The position numbers were made by a program, and so were the translations under genes. Positions 9,487 through 46,160 of a DNA stretch of 64,000 nucleotides are shown one piece after another. The notes beneath the pieces were generated by a model. The model made no database searches and was not told the DNA's origin. It worked only from the letters and a program-made list of their open reading frames with translations. Origin of the DNA: Pseudohongiella sp. O18 (GTDB lineage: Bacteria > Pseudomonadota > Gammaproteobacteria > Pseudomonadales > Pseudohongiellaceae); assembly GCF_021729085.1 (NCBI RefSeq), contig NZ_JAJSAR010000001.1, forward strand, positions 1,364,001 through 1,428,000. Direction: 5' to 3'. The stretch's first letter is position 1, and the number at the start of each line of letters is the position of its first letter.

Positions 9487-10089
9487 ATGACCGTCTACGA
9501 TCGCGAGCGCGCACTGCAGGAACGCCTTAATTCATTTTTTCATAAAAATTTTGCTCTACCTGACCTGGACTACTATTCCCGCCTGGACAGAAAGGCACTT
9601 GCTGGGCTGAAGGCTCTTCTTGGCGATATCAATAACATCTTCACTATGAAAATTTGCTTGGAGTTTGGTACTTGGCTCGGCGAAATCCTGAACCTGGATG
9701 CTAAAACTCGAGGTGAACTCAGAGATTCGATTCTACAAAGCCAACCCAACACCAACGGTTTTGATCTGGAAATTCCAGAGCCTGTCGGCGTCGTCGCCGA
9801 AGTAAAGTGCAATGTACCGATAAACGGAGGGTCGGTTTACGGTTCTGCTCAACGCAACGGGATCGTGAAAGATATAGATGCTCTCATGGAGGGCAAGAGC
9901 AAATCACCGATCGATCCCACCAACTGTCTTAAGTTTCTCGTTCTTCTAGACACGCCTGAGGTAAGAGCTGCGACAAGGCACCTTGTCAAGAATTTGAAGC
10001 GACACAAAGAGGCTGTGGTGTTTATTGAGCCGGGAATCAAGCCCGACTGCAGGCACAATCTCTACGTCGTCCACGTCAGTGAATCATAG
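9487..10089 (+). CDS. Putative PD-(D/E)XK-fold protein, function unknown
   Basis: A 200-residue protein I do not recognise by name. NGFDLEI (about 87-93) followed by VVAEVKCN (about 101-108) gives the Asp ... Glu-x-Lys arrangement of PD-(D/E)XK nucleases, with the expected spacing and hydrophobic strand context. A ribosome-binding sequence GGAGGGG precedes the ATG at suitable spacing. It stands alone between an IS remnant and a noncoding region, inside the repeat-bracketed segment. It could be an orphan restriction-type endonuclease or a nuclease-fold protein with another role; there is no partner methyltransferase nearby. Confidence 0.65.
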   Translation: MTVYDRERALQERLNSFFHKNFALPDLDYYSRLDRKALAGLKALLGDINNIFTMKICLEFGTWLGEILNLDAKTRGELRDSILQSQPNTNGFDLEIPEPVGVVAEVKCNVPINGGSVYGSAQRNGIVKDIDALMEGKSKSPIDPTNCLKFLVLLDTPEVRAATRHLVKNLKRHKEAVVFIEPGIKPDCRHNLYVVHVSES

Positions 10090-10755
10090 TCAACCGCAAT
10101 TACTGAGAGGCAAATACGTCAGCAGTCTTAAGTGAATGCCGGGCTAATTCATATGGTGAGAAGGAGCTGGCAAGTCACTTATCATTTGTGAGGTCGGTTC
10201 TACGCCGATTTCACGGGCACTTCAGTAGGCCTCTATAGGTTAGTCGCTCGGTTCTAAGCTTGTATAAGGGAAGTCAATCCACAGGAGCCGGCAAAATATG
10301 GCACCATCATCATTAAGATATCCGGGTTGGCTCTAAGGATAATAACTCTCCCGCTCTCAATCCTCATATGATAATGAATCGCATTGGCATTTGATTCTAG
10401 TACCTCCCCGGGCTTTGTCATCGAATCAGCCCTCGCCCCGAGTCAACTGGCAGTCTAAGATTCGTACATCCCGAGCCAACATGAACTCCCTCACTGATAA
10501 ACCAAATCTTAACCATATCGACCCGTATCTAGTCAGGCATTGGTTTTACATACCAATTCGTGAAAGCCTATCGTTTCGGTAGTTACTCCTTTGGAATCAG
10601 TAGGTTCCGAGCCTCAATTGCTTGGTTGAAGAAGGTTAATAAATCGTAAGGCACAATCTGGTCACACTAAACCATGTTTATGCCCGGAAAACACCCGACA
10701 CCGTAGCGGCGTTGTCCTAAGATCTCGATCATTGAGAACTATAAGGGCATCTTCC
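10090..10755. other. Long noncoding region upstream of the integrase, with repeat copy B
   Basis: About 666 bases without a supportable gene. It contains copy B of the direct repeat (10259-10343), preceded by GGTTCTAAGC, the same sequence that ends copy A. The rest is mixed-composition sequence with no terminator or strong promoter that I can defend. A 63-codon frame at 10391-10582 lacks a ribosome-binding site. Recombinase binding sites could lie here, but I cannot show them. Confidence 0.5.
10259..10343 (+). repeat. Degenerate direct repeat, copy B
   Basis: Matches copy A (8085-8170): CTTGTATAAGG start, the core GGCAAAATATGGCAC, ATCATCAT, and GGCTCTAAG near the end. It lies about 410 bases before the integrase start at 10756. 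Distance between the two copies is about 2.17 kb. Confidence 0.7.
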
Positions 10756-11730
10756 ATGGCAACGATCAGAAAGCTCAGAAACAAGTGGCAAGCTCAAGTC
10801 CGCTTGAAGGGAATGAAACCTATCGCTCGGTCATTCGACAAGAAGGCTGACGCCGTAGACTGGGCGTGTGTCACAGAATCAAAGGTCACAACGGGAACCT
10901 ACGTTGACCCTCGTGTTGCAGACAACATCTCTCTCTCAAAGTTGATTGATCTATACACTGATCGAGTAAAGCAGCAGGGCAGAGTGAGCGGGCCAGAAAT
11001 GTCGCGTTTAAAGCGGCTGAGGTGTGCTTTGGGAGAGTTTAGCTTGAGTGGGCTATCTGTCTATAACCTGAGTCAATATCGCGACCAGAGACTCCTGGAA
11101 GCGAATCCCGCGACAGTCATTCATGAGCTTAGCTTGCTGCTGAGATTGCTGCGATGCGCAGGAACTGATTTTGGCATACCTCTGCCTCAAGGAGTGCCAT
11201 CTGTAAGACTACCGAAAATGCCACGTGGCAGAGTCCGACGCCTTTCTGGCGACGAGGAGCAGCGACTAGTTGATGCAGCCAATGACGACCCGGAGCTGTC
11301 TGACATTATCATTGTGGCAATAAATTGTGCTACACGGCGCTCTGAGCTTTTGGCAGTTCAAAGGCAGGATATCGATCTTGAACGTCGCACGCTTACACTT
11401 ACCAAGACAAAGAATGGATTGTCGCGTGTCGTGCCGCTTCCTATGGCTGCTTTGGAGGCGTTTAAGCGTCGTCTGAGTGGCAGTGATAAGCCTTTTTCAA
11501 TAAGCGCTTCAAGGCTCTCACAGCGCTTTGCAGATATAAGTAAAAAGGCCGGGATTTACGGGCTTAGATTTCATGACCTTCGTCATGAAGCAGTAAGTAG
11601 ACTTTTTGAAATGGGATTGACCACTGTGGAGGTTGCAGCCATCAGTGGTCATCAGAGTCTGTCAATGTTGCAGAGATATACTCACATCAAACCGGAGCAT
11701 CTGGTGAGGAGGCTCATCAAACTTTCCTGA
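10756..11730 (+). CDS. Tyrosine recombinase (phage-type integrase)
   Basis: A 324-residue site-specific recombinase. The N-terminal part (MATIRKLRNKWQAQVRLKG) is typical of integrases on mobile elements. The C-terminal catalytic domain shows the first Arg in TRRSELLAVQ (near 195), a Lys in TKTKNGLSRVVPL, HDLRH (near 272), a GHQS histidine, and the nucleophile in QRYTHIK (near 305), so the set looks intact. I chose the ATG at 10756 because AAGGG sits 8 bases upstream; a TTG at 10732 lacks a ribosome-binding site. Its 3' end overlaps the convergent HUH-type gene by 14 bases. It is a second integrase, distinct from the one at the tRNA, so the island may be composite. Confidence 0.92.
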   Translation: MATIRKLRNKWQAQVRLKGMKPIARSFDKKADAVDWACVTESKVTTGTYVDPRVADNISLSKLIDLYTDRVKQQGRVSGPEMSRLKRLRCALGEFSLSGLSVYNLSQYRDQRLLEANPATVIHELSLLLRLLRCAGTDFGIPLPQGVPSVRLPKMPRGRVRRLSGDEEQRLVDAANDDPELSDIIIVAINCATRRSELLAVQRQDIDLERRTLTLTKTKNGLSRVVPLPMAALEAFKRRLSGSDKPFSISASRLSQRFADISKKAGIYGLRFHDLRHEAVSRLFEMGLTTVEVAAISGHQSLSMLQRYTHIKPEHLVRRLIKLS

Positions 11731-41195: not shown

Positions 41196-41384
41196 CAGCT
41201 CCTCCGCCGACCTTGCCTGAAAACACAGATTAATGATTGGCCTTCAGCGGCCGATAAATATTGTGTAGAGCCATCATACGCGTGGCTGAAGGGCAAGTCG
41301 ACACGGGGCTGGTGACATGTCTACCATACCCGGAAACGCTTGATTGACAAGGGATGTAGCGAAATTACAGAGCGTATACTCGAC

Positions 41385-41399
41385 ACACTTTGTTGCAAA
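41385..41399 (+). promoter_or_regulatory. Shared upstream block 1 (copy 1 of the monooxygenase genes)
   Basis: ACACTTTGTTGCAAA, identical to 44997-45011 upstream of copy 3. Noncoding in both places. Confidence 0.6.
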
Positions 41400-41440
41400 A
41401 ATACAGTGGCAATCGTTGTACTACCGGAAAAAGTTGGTTT

Positions 41441-41459
41441 AGCATCGTCGTCAATGCTT
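41441..41459 (+). promoter_or_regulatory. Shared upstream block 2 (copy 1)
   Basis: AGCAT, five variable bases, then TCAATGCTT. The same pattern occurs at 45011-45029 upstream of copy 3, where it is a near-perfect palindrome. Probable activator or repressor site. Confidence 0.5.
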
Positions 41460-41493
41460 AACACTGTAACCGATGCAGTTTGCAGAATTAAGA

Positions 41494-41508
41494 CAGTCTT
41501 CAAGACTG
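41494..41508. promoter_or_regulatory. Perfect palindrome upstream of monooxygenase copy 1
   Basis: CAGTCTT, central C, AAGACTG (7-1-7). It lies 110 bases before the ATG, probably in the transcribed leader. It could be an operator or a short hairpin; no regulator can be named. Confidence 0.45.
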
Positions 41509-41617
41509 ATCATAAAAGCAAGAAAGAACGTATTGTGTAAGACAGTATGGCGGAAGATGTTGGCGGGAATGGTCCCGACAGACGTGCAACCGCTTAAACC
41601 TGCGGGAGGAATTCCTT

Positions 41618-42577
41618 ATGAAAAAATTCACGATGACAGCATTGGCTGCGGCAGCAGCTGCAGTCAGCTTCCAGGCTTATGCCCAGGACGGCGTTGATCC
41701 GCTGACCCAGGTTGAGCCAGTAACTGCCGAGTGGTTCCACGACGGTTCCGAGCCGGACTACGTTGTTGACGTACCCAGCTTCACTGTTCCTGCCACTGGC
41801 GTGATCGACTACATCGACTCTGTAATTCCGCTGGAATTCGGCGAAGACAAGTGGGTGAAAGCTGTTCAGTTCATCCCAGGTGACAAGCGCGTTCTTCACC
41901 ACCTGCTGTCCTACGTAGTTGCTGATACGCCTGACGCTGGCGACGGCATGCTGGACGAGACTGTAAACGACCCACGTCGTGAGTTCCTGGAAGGCTATGC
42001 GCCTGGTAAGGAGTACGCTACCGAGTTCCCCGAGAACACCGGTATCTACGTTCCTGAAGGTTCAGCGCTGCGCATGAGCATTCACTACACCTCTTTCGGC
42101 CAGGAAACTACTGACAGCACCCGTGTTGGTCTGTGGTTCGCCGACGAGAACAACGAGCCAGAGTATCAGTACCACACATACTCAGTGGCCACTCCGATGA
42201 ATCAGATTCAGATTCCTGCGGGCGCCATGGAGCATGAGTCATCTGCAACTCACGTGTTCGAAGACGAGATCACTCTGTACGGTTTCCGTGCTCACATGCA
42301 CTACCGTGGCAAGTCCATGGCAGCTCGCGTGATCTACCCGGACAACACTGAAGAAGAGATCATCAACGTAGCTAACTACAACTTCGCATGGCAGCCTACT
42401 TACCGTATGGAAGAGCCTATGGTTCTGCCTGCTGGTTCACGCGTAGTGGTTGAAGGCCTGTTCGACAACTCTGAATACAACCTGGGTGTACCGGATCCGA
42501 CCGTTGACGCCATGGGTGGTCTGCAGAGCTGGGAAGAAATGTTCATCGGTTACTTCTCTTACACAACCAACGACTAA
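41618..42577 (+). CDS. Secreted PHM-like type II copper monooxygenase, copy 1
   Basis: A 319-residue protein with a signal peptide (cleavage near AYAQ, residue 22). Its copper-ligand set parallels peptidylglycine alpha-hydroxylating monooxygenase: His94-His95 in RVLHHLLSYVV, His156 in SIHYTSFG, the His226-x-His228 pair in RAHMHYRGKSM, and Met308 in EEMFIGYF. Length is close to the PHM catalytic core, so both copper domains are in one chain. I see no cysteine in the mature protein, unlike disulfide-rich animal PHM. All phenylalanines are coded TTC, suggesting very high expression. It has a strong ribosome-binding site and its own terminator. Probably periplasmic; substrate unknown. Confidence 0.8.
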   Translation: MKKFTMTALAAAAAAVSFQAYAQDGVDPLTQVEPVTAEWFHDGSEPDYVVDVPSFTVPATGVIDYIDSVIPLEFGEDKWVKAVQFIPGDKRVLHHLLSYVVADTPDAGDGMLDETVNDPRREFLEGYAPGKEYATEFPENTGIYVPEGSALRMSIHYTSFGQETTDSTRVGLWFADENNEPEYQYHTYSVATPMNQIQIPAGAMEHESSATHVFEDEITLYGFRAHMHYRGKSMAARVIYPDNTEEEIINVANYNFAWQPTYRMEEPMVLPAGSRVVVEGLFDNSEYNLGVPDPTVDAMGGLQSWEEMFIGYFSYTTND

Positions 42578-42623
42578 TACGTTGATTGTAAGCAGTAACT
42601 GATAGAGCAGCACAACAACACCA

Positions 42624-42654
42624 GGGGCTGCTTCCCTGAGAAGCGGCCCCTTTT
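42624..42654 (+). terminator. Terminator of monooxygenase copy 1
   Basis: GGGGCTGCTTC pairs with GAAGCGGCCCC (one G-T wobble) around CCTGA-like loop bases, followed by TTTT. Confidence 0.92.
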
Positions 42655-42777
42655 GTTTGTCAGTCCTATCTGGGTTTGCGCGGGCGACGTGATCCTTAAA
42701 AGCGCCTCAAGTTTGCGCCAGATTAAGATTCGGACAGGCAAACTGTAGTATCCTTGCCTATCTGCAATCCTGTAGTA

Positions 42778-42807
42778 TTGTGATCAATAAGTTAACAAAA
42801 CAATAAT
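42778..42807 (+). promoter_or_regulatory. Predicted promoter of the redoxin-cytochrome gene
   Basis: TTGTGA (42778-42783), 18-base spacer, AATAAT (42802-42807, five of six -10 matches). Confidence 0.4.
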
Positions 42808-42891
42808 ATGTTGCAGGGCGTTTCGTTAGTGACGTTTTTGACGCAAGTGTTCCGCAGAAATATCCAGAGAGAGAATGAGGGTTAGTTCACC

Positions 42892-43755
42892 ATGAAAACA
42901 TCAAAGTTGCTGGCGCTGTTCACAGTAGCGGCTGCCATCAGTTTCAACGCTCAAGCAGCGGATCGGGTTGGCGATTTCAATCTGATCGACGATACGGGCA
43001 AAGCCCACCAGCTGAGCAAGTATGCGTTCAATAAAGCAGTCGTGATCGTTTCCCAGCAGGCTGGCTGTACTGCCAACCAGGAAAACATCGCACGCTACAA
43101 GCAGCTGCGTACCAATTTCGACCACCGTGGCGTGAGCTTCCTGATGATGAATTCATCAGTGGCAGACGAGCGTGATGACATCCGTGCCGAGGAAGCAGTC
43201 TGGAATTATGACTTCCCGATCATGGATGACGACGCTCAGCTGGTAGCTGATGCCCTGGGTATCGATAAAGCCGGTCAGGTAGTTGTTGTGGATCCGGTTC
43301 GTATGAATGTCCTGTACCGTGGCCCGATGCCTGCTCAGTGGGCGCGTCACGAGCTGGGTACTGTGCTGGAAGCCATCCTGGCCGACGGCGCTGACAGCCG
43401 TCAGATGGAAACCGTAAACGTGGACTTCGAAACAGCTGAAGGCTGTGCACTTGAATTCCCGATGCGTGATCGTTACCAGGCAGAAGCGCCTGATTACGAA
43501 ACTGAAGTTGCGCCAATCCTGATCGAGCGCTGCGTAGGTTGTCACGTTGAAGGCGGTATCGGTCCGTTCGCCATGAACAGCCACATGATGATTCAGGGCT
43601 GGAGCCCGATGATCAAAGAGGTTCTTATGACCAAGCGTATGCCTCCGATGCAGGTCGACCCCTCGGTTCGCACCTGGATCAACGCAGGCAACATGCCGGT
43701 TGAAGAACGTCAGATCCTCGTACACTGGATCAATGCTGGCTCACCGCGTAACTGA
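42892..43755 (+). CDS. Secreted redoxin-cytochrome c fusion
   Basis: A 287-residue protein with a signal peptide (cleavage near AQAAD, about 23). Residues 25-170 form a peroxiredoxin/thioredoxin-like redoxin domain (VGDFNLIDDTGKAHQLSKY) with a single Cys in QQAGCTANQ rather than CxxC. A c-type haem motif CVGCH (214-218) follows, with candidate axial Met in TKRMPPMQ (250 or 253). It lies between monooxygenase copies 1 and 2. Larger proteins in other bacteria, as I recall, fuse redoxin, haem and the PHM-like copper domain in one chain. That makes this the likely electron donor or redox partner for the neighbours. Confidence 0.82.
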   Translation: MKTSKLLALFTVAAAISFNAQAADRVGDFNLIDDTGKAHQLSKYAFNKAVVIVSQQAGCTANQENIARYKQLRTNFDHRGVSFLMMNSSVADERDDIRAEEAVWNYDFPIMDDDAQLVADALGIDKAGQVVVVDPVRMNVLYRGPMPAQWARHELGTVLEAILADGADSRQMETVNVDFETAEGCALEFPMRDRYQAEAPDYETEVAPILIERCVGCHVEGGIGPFAMNSHMMIQGWSPMIKEVLMTKRMPPMQVDPSVRTWINAGNMPVEERQILVHWINAGSPRN

Positions 43756-43774
43756 TAACGCGCTGACAAGCATC

Positions 43775-43807
43775 AAAAAAAGCCGCCTTAGGGCGGCTTT
43801 TTTTTTG
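43775..43807. terminator. Terminator of the redoxin-cytochrome gene
   Basis: AGCCGCC (43781-43787) and GGCGGCT (43792-43798) with a 4-base loop, flanked by an A-run on the left and nine T on the right. Confidence 0.95.
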
Positions 43808-43837
43808 TGTTAAAGGACCCAAGAGGGCCGAAAGGGC

Positions 43838-43867
43838 CGGAGGGAATTAGCTTTCTAAACCCCTCCG
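43838..43867. repeat. Inverted repeat upstream of monooxygenase copy 2
   Basis: CGGAGGG (43838-43844) pairs with CCCTCCG (43861-43867) over a 16-base loop, then TCCCTTTT. It may be a second weak terminator or an operator just before the copy 2 promoter. Confidence 0.4.
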
Positions 43868-43886
43868 TCCCTTTTCTGCTGGCCTA

Positions 43887-43915
43887 TTGCTTTACTGGAA
43901 TCTGTGGTTTAGAGT
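43887..43915 (+). promoter_or_regulatory. Predicted promoter of monooxygenase copy 2
   Basis: TTGCTT, 17-base spacer, TAGAGT. Weak match at both boxes, but well placed between the terminator and the start. Confidence 0.3.
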
Positions 43916-43976
43916 CGGCTTTAATGCAAGGTAGTTTGTGTGCAGAACACAAAATTCCCGCACGAGGACAAGGACA

Positions 43977-44933
43977 ATGAGAATAAAAAGCCTGACCACT
44001 GCATTTGCGCTGGCTGCTGCCTGGGGAGTTCAGGCGCACGCAGGTGTAGACCCCCTGACACAGATTCAGCCACCGTCAAACGAATGGACCTACGACGGTT
44101 CCAATCCTGACCAGATTATCGAAGTGCCCAGCTTTACCGTGCCTGCCACTGGTGTTATCGACTACATCAACTCAGTGATTCCTCTCGAATTCGAAGAGGA
44201 AAAGTGGGTTAAGGCCGTGCAGTTCATTCCCGGCGACAAGCGCGTGCTGCACCATCTGTTGTCTTATGTTGTGGCCCATGATGGCCAAAACGAAGGCATG
44301 ATTGATGAGGCATCCAACGACCCGCGCCGCGAGTTCCTCGAAGGCTATGCGCCTGGTAAGGAATATGCCACTGAATTCCCGGAAAATACTGGTATCAAAG
44401 TGCCTGTGGGCTCTGCGCTGCGCATGAGCATCCACTACACATCATTCGGCCAGGAAACTGTCGACAACACCCGTGTTGGTCTATGGTTCGCTGATGAGAA
44501 TGACCAGCCGGAACTGGAATACCACACCTATTCAGTGTCCGCCAATGGCGCCGAGCGGCTGCACATTCCGCCGGGAGCCATGGAGCATGAAATGGCGGCC
44601 AGTCATGTGTTTGAGGACGCCATTGTCCTGCATGGTTTCCGTGCGCACATGCACTATCGCGGCAAATCCATGTCAGCCCGTGTGATTTATCCTGACAATA
44701 CCCAGGAGCAGATCATCAACGTGGCCAACTATAACTTTGCCTGGCAGCCCACCTACCGCATGGACGAGCCGATGGTTCTGCCGGCAGGCTCCCGAGTGGT
44801 TGTGGAAGGTCTGTTTGACAACTCCGAGTACAACCCCGGTAACCCTGACCCGACCGTACCGGCCGTCGGTGGTCCCCAGAGCTGGGAAGAAATGTTTATT
44901 GGATACTTCTCGTATACAGACGTACCCAACTAA
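43977..44933 (+). CDS. Secreted PHM-like type II copper monooxygenase, copy 2
   Basis: A 318-residue paralogue with a signal peptide (cleavage near AHAG, about 22). All six ligands are kept: HHLLSYVV, SIHYTSFG, RAHMHYRGKSM, EEMFIGYF. Long blocks such as EFLEGYAPGKEYATEFPE are identical to copy 1. I chose the ATG at 43977 (MRIKSLTTAF) with AAGGA close upstream; a GTG at 43938 would spoil the signal peptide. Phenylalanine codons are mixed TTT/TTC, so expression is probably lower than copy 1. Own terminator downstream. No cysteine in the mature form. Confidence 0.8.
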   Translation: MRIKSLTTAFALAAAWGVQAHAGVDPLTQIQPPSNEWTYDGSNPDQIIEVPSFTVPATGVIDYINSVIPLEFEEEKWVKAVQFIPGDKRVLHHLLSYVVAHDGQNEGMIDEASNDPRREFLEGYAPGKEYATEFPENTGIKVPVGSALRMSIHYTSFGQETVDNTRVGLWFADENDQPELEYHTYSVSANGAERLHIPPGAMEHEMAASHVFEDAIVLHGFRAHMHYRGKSMSARVIYPDNTQEQIINVANYNFAWQPTYRMDEPMVLPAGSRVVVEGLFDNSEYNPGNPDPTVPAVGGPQSWEEMFIGYFSYTDVPN

Positions 44934-44954
44934 ATCAATCGCTTAGCAAAGGAG

Positions 44955-44990
44955 TGGGGCGTGCTGTCAACCAGCGCGCCCCATTTTTTT
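44955..44990 (+). terminator. Terminator of monooxygenase copy 2
   Basis: TGGGGCGTGCTG pairs with CAGCGCGCCCCA (one wobble) around TCAAC, followed by seven T. Confidence 0.95.
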
Positions 44991-44996
44991 GTGGTA

Positions 44997-45029
44997 ACAC
45001 TTTGTTGCAAAGCATTGATTTCAATGCTT
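44997..45029 (+). promoter_or_regulatory. Shared upstream blocks 1 and 2 (copy 3), with palindrome
   Basis: ACACTTTGTTGCAAA (44997-45011) is identical to the block at 41385-41399. It runs directly into GCATTGA-TT-TCAATGC (45012-45027), a perfect 7-2-7 palindrome whose outer bases match block 2 of copy 1. The palindrome abuts the predicted -35, a typical activator position. Confidence 0.6.
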
Positions 45030-45056
45030 GAGCTGCACTGTTTTGTGGCATAGGAT
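45028..45056 (+). promoter_or_regulatory. Predicted promoter of monooxygenase copy 3
   Basis: TTGAGC, 17-base spacer, TAGGAT. Confidence 0.4.
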
Positions 45057-45100
45057 CGAAGTTGAGTGATATTCCATTTCCAACGACAGGAGCAGTGACA

Positions 45101-46063
45101 ATGAAAAAAACGAGTTTGACTGCTGCAATGCTGCTGGCCTCGAGCTGGGCAGTCGTAGCTGATGCGGGAGTTGACCCATTAACTCAGATACAGCCACCAC
45201 AAAGTGAGTGGCAGTATAACGGGGCCGAGCCGGACGTTGTAATCGATGTCCCCAGCTTCACGGTGCCTGCCACAGGTGTTATCGACTATATCGACTCGGT
45301 AATTCCTCTGGAATTTGGCGAGGAGAAGTGGGTAAAAGCGGTTCAGTTTATCCCGGGTGACAAACGAGTTCTGCACCACTTGTTGTCCTATGTCGTCGCT
45401 GATGAACCCCAGGAAGAAGGCATGATCGACGAGGCGGTCAACGATCCGCGTCGTGAGTTCCTGGAAGGTTATGCGCCTGGTAAGGAATATGCCACCGAGT
45501 TTCCAGAAGGTACCGGTATTCGAGTGCCGGAGGATTCCGCGCTGCGCATGAGCATCCACTACACTTCATTCGGTCAGGAAACTGTCGACAACACCCGTGT
45601 TGGTCTGTGGTTCTATGAGGATGAAGAAGAGCCGAATCTGGAGTTCCACACGTACTCAGTCTCTCCCGGTAACCGTACTGAGAACATCGTGATTCCGCCT
45701 GGTGCCATGGAGCACGAAATGGCAGCAACTCACGTGTTTGAGGAAGACATCCTGCTGTACGGCTTCCGTGCGCACATGCACTACCGCGGCAAGTCCATGG
45801 CAGCCCGCGTGATCTATCCTGACAACACGCAGGAAGACATCATCAATGTTGCCAACTACAACTTTGCCTGGCAGCCCACTTACCGCATGGACGAGCCCAT
45901 GGTCATTCCGGCTGGCTCGCGCGTAGTGGTAGAGGGTCTGTTTGACAACTCCGAGTACAACCCGGGTGTGCCTGATCCTACCGTAACTGCATACGGTGGC
46001 CTGCAGAGCTGGGAGGAGATGTTTATTGGTTACTTCTCCTACACGGATCTACCATCCGAGTAA
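45101..46063 (+). CDS. Secreted PHM-like type II copper monooxygenase, copy 3
   Basis: A 320-residue paralogue with a signal peptide (cleavage near ADAG, about 23). Ligands are complete: HHLLSYVV, SIHYTSFG, RAHMHYRGKSM, EEMFIGYF. It differs from the others mainly at the N-terminus and in surface segments such as YEDEEEPNLEFHTYSVSPGN. The ATG at 45101 has CAGGAG upstream. Upstream DNA shares two blocks with copy 1, so copies 1 and 3 may be co-regulated. Own terminator downstream. The retained ligands in all three argue for selection on each, not decay after duplication. Confidence 0.8.
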   Translation: MKKTSLTAAMLLASSWAVVADAGVDPLTQIQPPQSEWQYNGAEPDVVIDVPSFTVPATGVIDYIDSVIPLEFGEEKWVKAVQFIPGDKRVLHHLLSYVVADEPQEEGMIDEAVNDPRREFLEGYAPGKEYATEFPEGTGIRVPEDSALRMSIHYTSFGQETVDNTRVGLWFYEDEEEPNLEFHTYSVSPGNRTENIVIPPGAMEHEMAATHVFEEDILLYGFRAHMHYRGKSMAARVIYPDNTQEDIINVANYNFAWQPTYRMDEPMVIPAGSRVVVEGLFDNSEYNPGVPDPTVTAYGGLQSWEEMFIGYFSYTDLPSE

Positions 46064-46125
46064 GTTGTTGAAATCAGCCTGACCACCCGCTATGGTAGGC
46101 TGACTAAACAAGCAGTACGTATACA

Positions 46126-46160
46126 AAGGGGCTGCTTCCTGACAGGAGCGGCCCTTTTTG
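46126..46160 (+). terminator. Terminator of monooxygenase copy 3
   Basis: AGGGGCTGCTTCCT and AGGAGCGGCCCT form an imperfect stem around GAC, followed by TTTTTG. Sequence is similar to the copy 1 terminator (GGGGCTGCTTCC), another trace of duplication. Confidence 0.88.

Follow-up and report, generated by a model that had tools for sequence, protein, structure and literature searches.

PHM (peptidylglycine alpha-hydroxylating monooxygenase), a domain of animal PAM, and DBM are enzymes with conserved disulfides. PHM, which completes peptide hormones in animals, uses ascorbate and binds its substrate through R240, N316, and Y318, and the route by which electrons reach its two distant coppers is a long-standing question. 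A table in a 2020 review lists PHM and DBM with the eukaryotic copper proteins and leaves them out of its prokaryote column (PMC7435645). Herein, we describe four genes, arranged as M1-R-M2-M3 on the + strand of a stretch of 64,000 nucleotides from the marine bacterium Pseudohongiella sp. O18 (contig NZ_JAJSAR010000001.1, positions 1,364,001 to 1,428,000); the whole stretch is called the window below. The predicted structure and the sequence comparisons support a PHM-type fold for M1, M2, and M3, in which the ligands for the two copper sites are kept. Together with R, which appears to be an exported protein with a redoxin-fold domain and a c-type cytochrome domain, they probably form a cytochrome-driven, ascorbate-independent dicopper monooxygenase.

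The fold and the likely chemistry are of the known PHM/DBM kind. Like PHM, M1–M3 have a predicted two-domain jelly-roll fold over nearly the whole chain, six copper ligands, an Arg at the R240 position, and a Tyr at the Y318 position. Unlike PHM, with which they share 18%–19% identity, they are bacterial and exported, lack cysteines and hence disulfides, carry Ile at the N316 position, and have a cytochrome partner where PHM uses ascorbate. DBH (dopamine beta-hydroxylase, the DBM structure 4zel) resembles M1–M3 in fold and has copper ligands of the same type, whereas in M1–M3 no further domain, for example DOMON, was matched, and the R240 position has an Arg, which DBH presumably lacks. As far as the open-licence literature goes, the bacterial form, which lacks cysteines and is coupled to a cytochrome, is new, and so is its split, triplicated version: in the open-licence papers of PubMed Central, nothing was found on a bacterial PHM-cytochrome fusion or on a function for one.

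Predicted fold and copper ligands of M1, M2, and M3

The original prediction, made from the sequence alone, had described three secreted paralogues of about 320 residues with the residues HH, H, HxH, and M, no Cys in the mature forms, and a redoxin with a CVGCH motif between copies 1 and 2, all of which was borne out (Table 1). Each of M1, M2, and M3 begins with an N-terminal stretch that reads like a signal peptide. The open frame of M2 begins with GTG at 43938 and that of M3 with TTG at 45062, each upstream of the ATG given in Table 1; the sole Cys of the longest M2 frame lies upstream of this ATG. The pairwise identity of M1–M3 was 77.5%–79.4% over the full length and 81%–84% over the mature part compared.

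An AlphaFold model of mature M2, based on alignment A2 (61 of the 81 M domains, with near-duplicates and incomplete ones dropped), reached a pLDDT of 91.4 and a pTM of 0.85. When this model was searched against the PDB with Foldseek, the top 31 matches were all PHM or DBH, with E values from 2e-13 to 1e-9. Structural alignment with PHM gave Z 22.2 and 2.5 Å over 250 residues (residues 21–295 of the model, 18% identity) and spanned both copper domains, the predicted fold of the N-terminal half of M2 also matching PHM. The alignment with DBH (4zel) gave Z 21.5 over 269 residues, and the best unrelated fold scored Z 10.4. The PHM-like identity proposed from the sequence was thus recovered in the predicted fold and in the six ligands.

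M1, M2, and M3 all contain HH, H, HxH, and M, and these residues are invariant in all 61 rows of A2. The numbers R240, H242, H244, M314, N316, and Y318 were fixed via a piece of PHM checked against the PDB, and H107, H108, and H172 are the numbers that we take to apply to the CuH ligands. The ligand check covered 81 M domains and eight from the window's own genome, and the six ligands were complete in 88 of these 89 rows; as two genes were entered twice (L004 is L068, and L005 is L069), this corresponds to 86 of 87 genes. Eight fragments, which are cut or frame-broken copies in L012, L014, L015, L018, L039, and L057, were excluded. The Arg at the R240 position was found in 30 of the 61 family members, including M1–M3. 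One paralogue of the same genome (L065:8785-10455, − strand; own genome C1:767811-768659) carries HS instead of HH and R instead of H, and keeps the CuM ligands. Judged from its sequence, it is a natural CuH-less variant, and some copies may therefore depart from the standard enzyme with two coppers.

Table 1. Features of the M1-R-M2-M3 locus, in coordinates of the window
Feature	Coordinates	Strand	Basis
M1, predicted exported PHM-fold monooxygenase, 319 aa, no Cys	41618..42577	+	Cu2_monoox_C 29.8 bits
Terminator-like hairpin after M1	42623..42651	+	Hairpin scan
R, predicted exported protein with redoxin-fold and c-type cytochrome domains, 287 aa	42892..43755	+	AhpC-TSA 31.9 bits
CVGCH haem-attachment motif of R, residues 214–218	43531..43545	+	C, C, and H invariant in 49/49
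MPP motif of R, residues 250–252	43639..43647	+	M, P, and P invariant in 49/49
Terminator-like hairpin after R	43775..43804	+	Hairpin scan
M2, predicted exported PHM-fold monooxygenase, 318 aa from ATG	43977..44933	+	Cu2_monoox_C 27.7 bits; model pLDDT 91.4
HH of M2, presumed PHM H107/H108 equivalents, CuH site	44250..44255	+	Alignment
H of M2, presumed PHM H172 equivalent, CuH site	44433..44435	+	Alignment
Arg of M2 two residues ahead of HxH, at the PHM R240 position	44640..44642	+	Alignment
HMH of M2, PHM H242/H244 equivalents, CuM site	44646..44654	+	Alignment
Met of M2, PHM M314 equivalent, CuM site	44892..44894	+	Alignment
G+C-rich hairpin followed by a T run, after M2	44955..44983	+	By eye; unflagged by the scan
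M3, predicted exported PHM-fold monooxygenase, 320 aa from ATG	45101..46063	+	Cu2_monoox_C 32.0 bits
Terminator-like hairpin after M3	46125..46158	+	Hairpin scan

The redoxin-cytochrome R and its fused relatives

In alignment A3 (49 of the 56 R domains, near-duplicates or incomplete ones having been dropped), the residues of CxxCH and MPP are invariant throughout, as they are in all 40 fused chains aligned (A4 and A5, 40 of 42 chains, thinned in the same way), and the Met of MPP is probably an axial haem ligand, a candidate read from the alignment. Cytochrome_CBB3 was matched weakly in 35 of the 49 relatives (E ≤ 0.1, best 5e-5), and the genome has a gene for CcmH, a component of c-type cytochrome maturation. 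None of the 49 redoxin parts contains CxxC, which rules out ordinary CxxC thiol chemistry, and 14 of them have no Cys at all. A single Cys at redoxin position 39 was found in 33; the other 16 include two gaps and one X, and the paralogues L004 and L005 from the same genome lack it. From these patterns, the haem is more likely than the redoxin domain to carry out the redox work of R.

Considering that the front domain has the AhpC-TSA/redoxin fold, which includes peroxidases, and that the Cys at position 39 is kept in 33 of the 49 relatives, the PHM-fold proteins might use H2O2, as lytic polysaccharide monooxygenases can, and R might make or remove peroxide instead of supplying electrons for O2 chemistry. 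We regard this as unlikely, since the remaining 16 show no such Cys, 14 lack any redoxin Cys, and L004 and L005 do without the one at position 39. Moreover, the conservation extends to both copper sites and is not limited to CuM, as would be expected of two-electron O2 chemistry.

When named genomes were searched with M2 as the only query, 52 loci were obtained, in which the redoxin-cytochrome was then located by a separate profile. At 35 loci, the cytochrome and the PHM domain lie in one frame behind a redoxin domain; among these, the redoxin of L043 is in another frame and L047 is cut by a contig end. Relatives fused as redoxin-cytochrome c-PHM came from records named Verrucomicrobia, Planctomycetes, Hydrogenedentota, and Gammaproteobacteria. 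The redoxin-cytochrome occupies a separate frame at 15 loci, namely 14 with intact M-R neighbours (12 M-R-M-M and two M-R) and L057, a frame-broken fusion. Only M is seen at the last two, L017 (on a contig of 5.6 kb) and L039 (at the end of its contig). The 52 loci are not all independent: L039 and L014 belong to the same assembly, and L039 may be the rest of the cut third copy of L014. Of the 12 M-R-M-M loci, L006 comes from a genome nearly identical to that of the window, while in L012 and L014 the contig ends within the third M. Because the haem protein is on the same chain as the PHM domain in most of the relatives found, it is probably the electron donor.

At two loci, the third tandem copy is broken or partly open (L015:9155-9958 and L018:9761-10099); it may be dispensable there, or these may be assembly errors. 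A single-contig genome of the genus (G014:C1:693546-698960) has four standalone PHM frames at the locus, not three.

Alignment with fused relatives places the split at the domain border: R stops where the fused chain continues into the PHM domain, and M1–M3 start at that border, after the signal-peptide-like stretch. The model of the fused protein of L022 (pLDDT 90.5 and pTM 0.87 over 554 residues) predicts one compact unit, the back part of which matched PHM with Z 22.7 and the front part the redoxin 3u5r with Z 19.7. M1–M3 can be read as the detached catalytic parts, and R as the detached front half, of a usually single-chain protein. The window genes have homologous domains and the same borders as the fusions, but form two kinds of gene, with the catalytic gene triplicated and M before as well as after R. 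Simple gene fission is insufficient to account for this, as the fusions run from redoxin-cytochrome to PHM while the split loci have M before R. The order in the split loci could be accounted for if a fused gene was duplicated and the two copies then lost opposite halves. The M-R-M-M arrangement is beyond chance, because the order recurs in 12 other loci and strong purifying selection acts on the copies.

The pairing itself, which the original prediction had proposed to trace in other genomes, was found both in the fused loci and in a survey of 59 genomes of the family. Among the matches listed in this survey, all 18 standalone redoxin-cytochrome frames, from 12 genomes of the genus and six of a second genus, are closely preceded by a standalone PHM frame, and the two domain matches are no more than about 440 bases apart. 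G039:C53, apparently a fused gene that has been broken, was not counted.

The front domain resembles ResA/TlpA redoxins (2ywi, 3u5r, and ResA; Z 16–20, measured on the fused protein of L022), from which R differs in having no CxxC and in carrying a c-type cytochrome domain. Since the ResA-type fold group includes copper-insertion factors, R could also be a TlpA/Sco-style metallochaperone that loads or reduces copper in M1–M3, the haem being structural or a sensor. Such a role appears quite improbable: CxxC is absent from all 49 redoxin parts, the 49 relatives keep CxxCH and MPP invariant but no redoxin Cys, and a covalent fusion, as seen in 35 of the 52 loci, would be unusual for a chaperone.

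Divergence, copy number, and surroundings of the PHM-like genes

According to the tree, the M copies predate the sampled species. A single clade of 13 rows (support 100/99) contains the M1 genes, and the M2 and M3 types are also shared, with weaker branches and an order that varies between species. Between the window copies, dN was 0.11–0.13 and dS 1.2–1.7, the latter near saturation, and the ratio of about 0.08–0.10 indicates that all three are kept under constraint.

The suggestion in the original prediction that the three copies serve different substrates gained no support. At R240, N316, and Y318, the three pocket positions that could be mapped from PHM, M1–M3 all carry R, I, and Y, whereas the eight scattered paralogues of the genome show A-I-W, T-F-Q, L-F-Q, L-F-S, F-Y-G, S-V-F, Q-H-W, and E-I-L, the mapping of the two most distant being less sure. 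As three positions are few, this comparison is a hint only; it favours divergence of substrate among the scattered fused genes over such divergence within the tandem trio, for which dose or expression is the better guess. The three genes may differ in expression, because terminator-type hairpins separate them. The hairpin scan gave a total of five, equal to the chance expectation of 4.9, and the sole argument that suggests a function is the placement of the hairpins directly behind the stops.

The genome of the window has 11 PHM-like genes, M1–M3 and eight others, all eight fused to a cytochrome. Six of the eight encode redoxin-cytochrome-PHM chains (L062–L065, L068, and L069, the redoxin match of L065 being partial), and two distant paralogues (L066 and L067) encode cytochrome-PHM without redoxin. 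In each of the latter, the fusion is followed by a gene for a secreted-looking protein (L066:8156-9601 then 9682-10599; L067:8423-10012 then 10015-10983); the two followers are alike by eye and matched no Pfam or NCBIfam family at E 0.01. Directly downstream of the fused gene of L068 lies a gene for a secreted-looking alpha/beta hydrolase, which is dehalogenase- or epoxide-hydrolase-like (L068:7865-8812, − strand).

Within the genus, 8–15 PHM-like matches per genome were found in 15 genomes. The family sample had matches in 40 of 59 genomes, 37 with 8–34 copies and three with one or two, and three of its eight genera had none or almost none; the highest number, 34, was found in G055, a 6.6-Mb single-contig relative. 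The class-wide sample contained only two genomes with any match among 143, one of them the window's own. Such a family-rich, class-rare pattern looks like a lineage-specific expansion. A search of the phylum with the fused profile matched 123 of 200 genomes; the matches listed were nearly all to the redoxin part alone, and among them only the window's own genome and G293 cover the PHM part. A metagenome paper treats the genera of Pseudohongiellaceae and HTCC2089 as little studied and discusses monooxygenases, mostly labelled cytochrome P450, and the word "copper" is absent from its main text (PMC8371827).

The genes flanking M1–M3 encode PPDK, NfeD, a band-7 protein, an FMN oxidoreductase, and a BCCT transporter, and recur in 6–12 of 53 stretches (window counted). 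Reading a substrate pathway from these neighbours was rejected, because the surrounding chromosomal order recurs as well.

The 8–34 copies in 37 of the 59 family genomes, the uninformative neighbours in the window, and the paralogue without CuH ligands would suit proteins that store, sense, or scavenge periplasmic copper and have no enzymatic activity. We hold this to be very improbable, as the six ligands in 86 of 87 genes combined with pocket variation between paralogues look like enzyme diversification, and a tethered cytochrome would be needless for storage.

In animals, PHM plus PAL performs oxidative N-dealkylation, and a PAL-like NHL propeller gene lies near one of the other paralogues, L062 (L062:12895-14109, + strand; own genome C3:328927-330108). 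It is about 3.4 kb from the fused PHM-like gene, with two genes between them in this genome. Of the 15 genomes from the genus, 13 have a strong orthologue of the propeller, which in 12 of them lies on the same contig as an L062-type fused gene and within about 6 kb of it, and such a propeller gene also occurs near the fused PHM genes of the more distant loci L026–L031. The L062 propeller keeps the equivalents of R533, H585, Y654, and H786, residues with a known role in PAL (rat numbering), while H690 is one column off and M784 is not kept. By sequence, the L026 propeller matched PAL with E 5e-9, other NHL proteins matching equally well or better, and a part of the L062 propeller did not match PAL. 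A second type of PAL-like propeller is encoded beside or near fused PHM genes at L026:5802-6839 (− strand) and also at L027, L028, and L031, with similar ones at L022 and L024; the three checked (L026, L031, and L022) have H for Y654 and E for H786.

The genome has four PAL-like matches, none of them within the window; the likeness to PAL (3fvz) concerns a propeller near another paralogue and not near M1–M3. A PHM/PAL pairing is not claimed as the function of M1–M3 and is offered only as a lead for L062, and by sequence PAL was not the best PDB match of that propeller. The N-dealkylation known from animals makes the L062 pairing worth testing and says nothing direct on M1–M3.

Proposed mechanism and significance

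For M1–M3 and R, we infer copper and haem occupancy, docking, an electron direction from R to M, ascorbate independence, the role of the redoxin domain, and the substrate class. Electrons from a periplasmic donor would reach the haem of R, held by CxxCH and probably by the Met of MPP. R would dock on M1, M2, or M3, much as the domains of the fused proteins are predicted to pack, and would reduce the coppers one electron at a time, replacing ascorbate. CuM(I) would then bind O2 and hydroxylate a small substrate, either exported or scavenged, at one of its C–H bonds. The redoxin domain, its thiol chemistry lost, may now act as a docking platform. Because of the Arg at the R240 position and the Tyr at the Y318 position, a carboxylate-bearing, N-acylglycine-like compound would be the first candidate substrate.

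Several observations weigh against a cytochrome-driven dicopper monooxygenase. Of the two Pfam families named in the original prediction, Cu2_monoox_C matched M1–M3 above the cut-off of 23 bits, whereas the N-terminal family Cu2_monooxygen matched none of the three and only 3 of the 40 fused relatives, weakly (best E 0.019). R itself had no Pfam cytochrome match. Identity to PHM and DBH was just 16%–19% in the structural alignments, and a sequence-profile search of the PDB gave no PHM, so that the fold search was required. The L065 paralogue lacks two of the three CuH ligands yet has an open frame. A single R accompanies three M genes and each gene is set apart from the next by a hairpin, so that joint expression can only be presumed. 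Finally, the neighbours of M1–M3 gave no pointer to a substrate in the 53 stretches compared. NCBIfam likewise gave no match at cut-off for M1–M3 or R; as Pfam recognises the C-terminal domain, annotation of such proteins in databases is likely.

Against the listing of PHM and DBM under eukaryotes only, there are 8–34 copies of PHM-like genes in 37 of 59 genomes of one sampled bacterial family. With a natural protein that brings its own haem donor, the electron step to the coppers could be followed directly in stopped-flow experiments, and in the split version donor and acceptor could be mixed freely. These genes would also provide a varied, cysteine-free set of copper oxygenases. It is possible, though doubtful at present, that this marine lineage has a large periplasmic repertoire of PHM-type enzymes driven by a tethered or docked cytochrome c, in which one R of Pseudohongiella serves three detached catalytic subunits and at least one paralogue works with a PAL-like lyase, and that the repertoire serves catabolism through the oxidative N-dealkylation of N-acylglycine- or peptide-like compounds.

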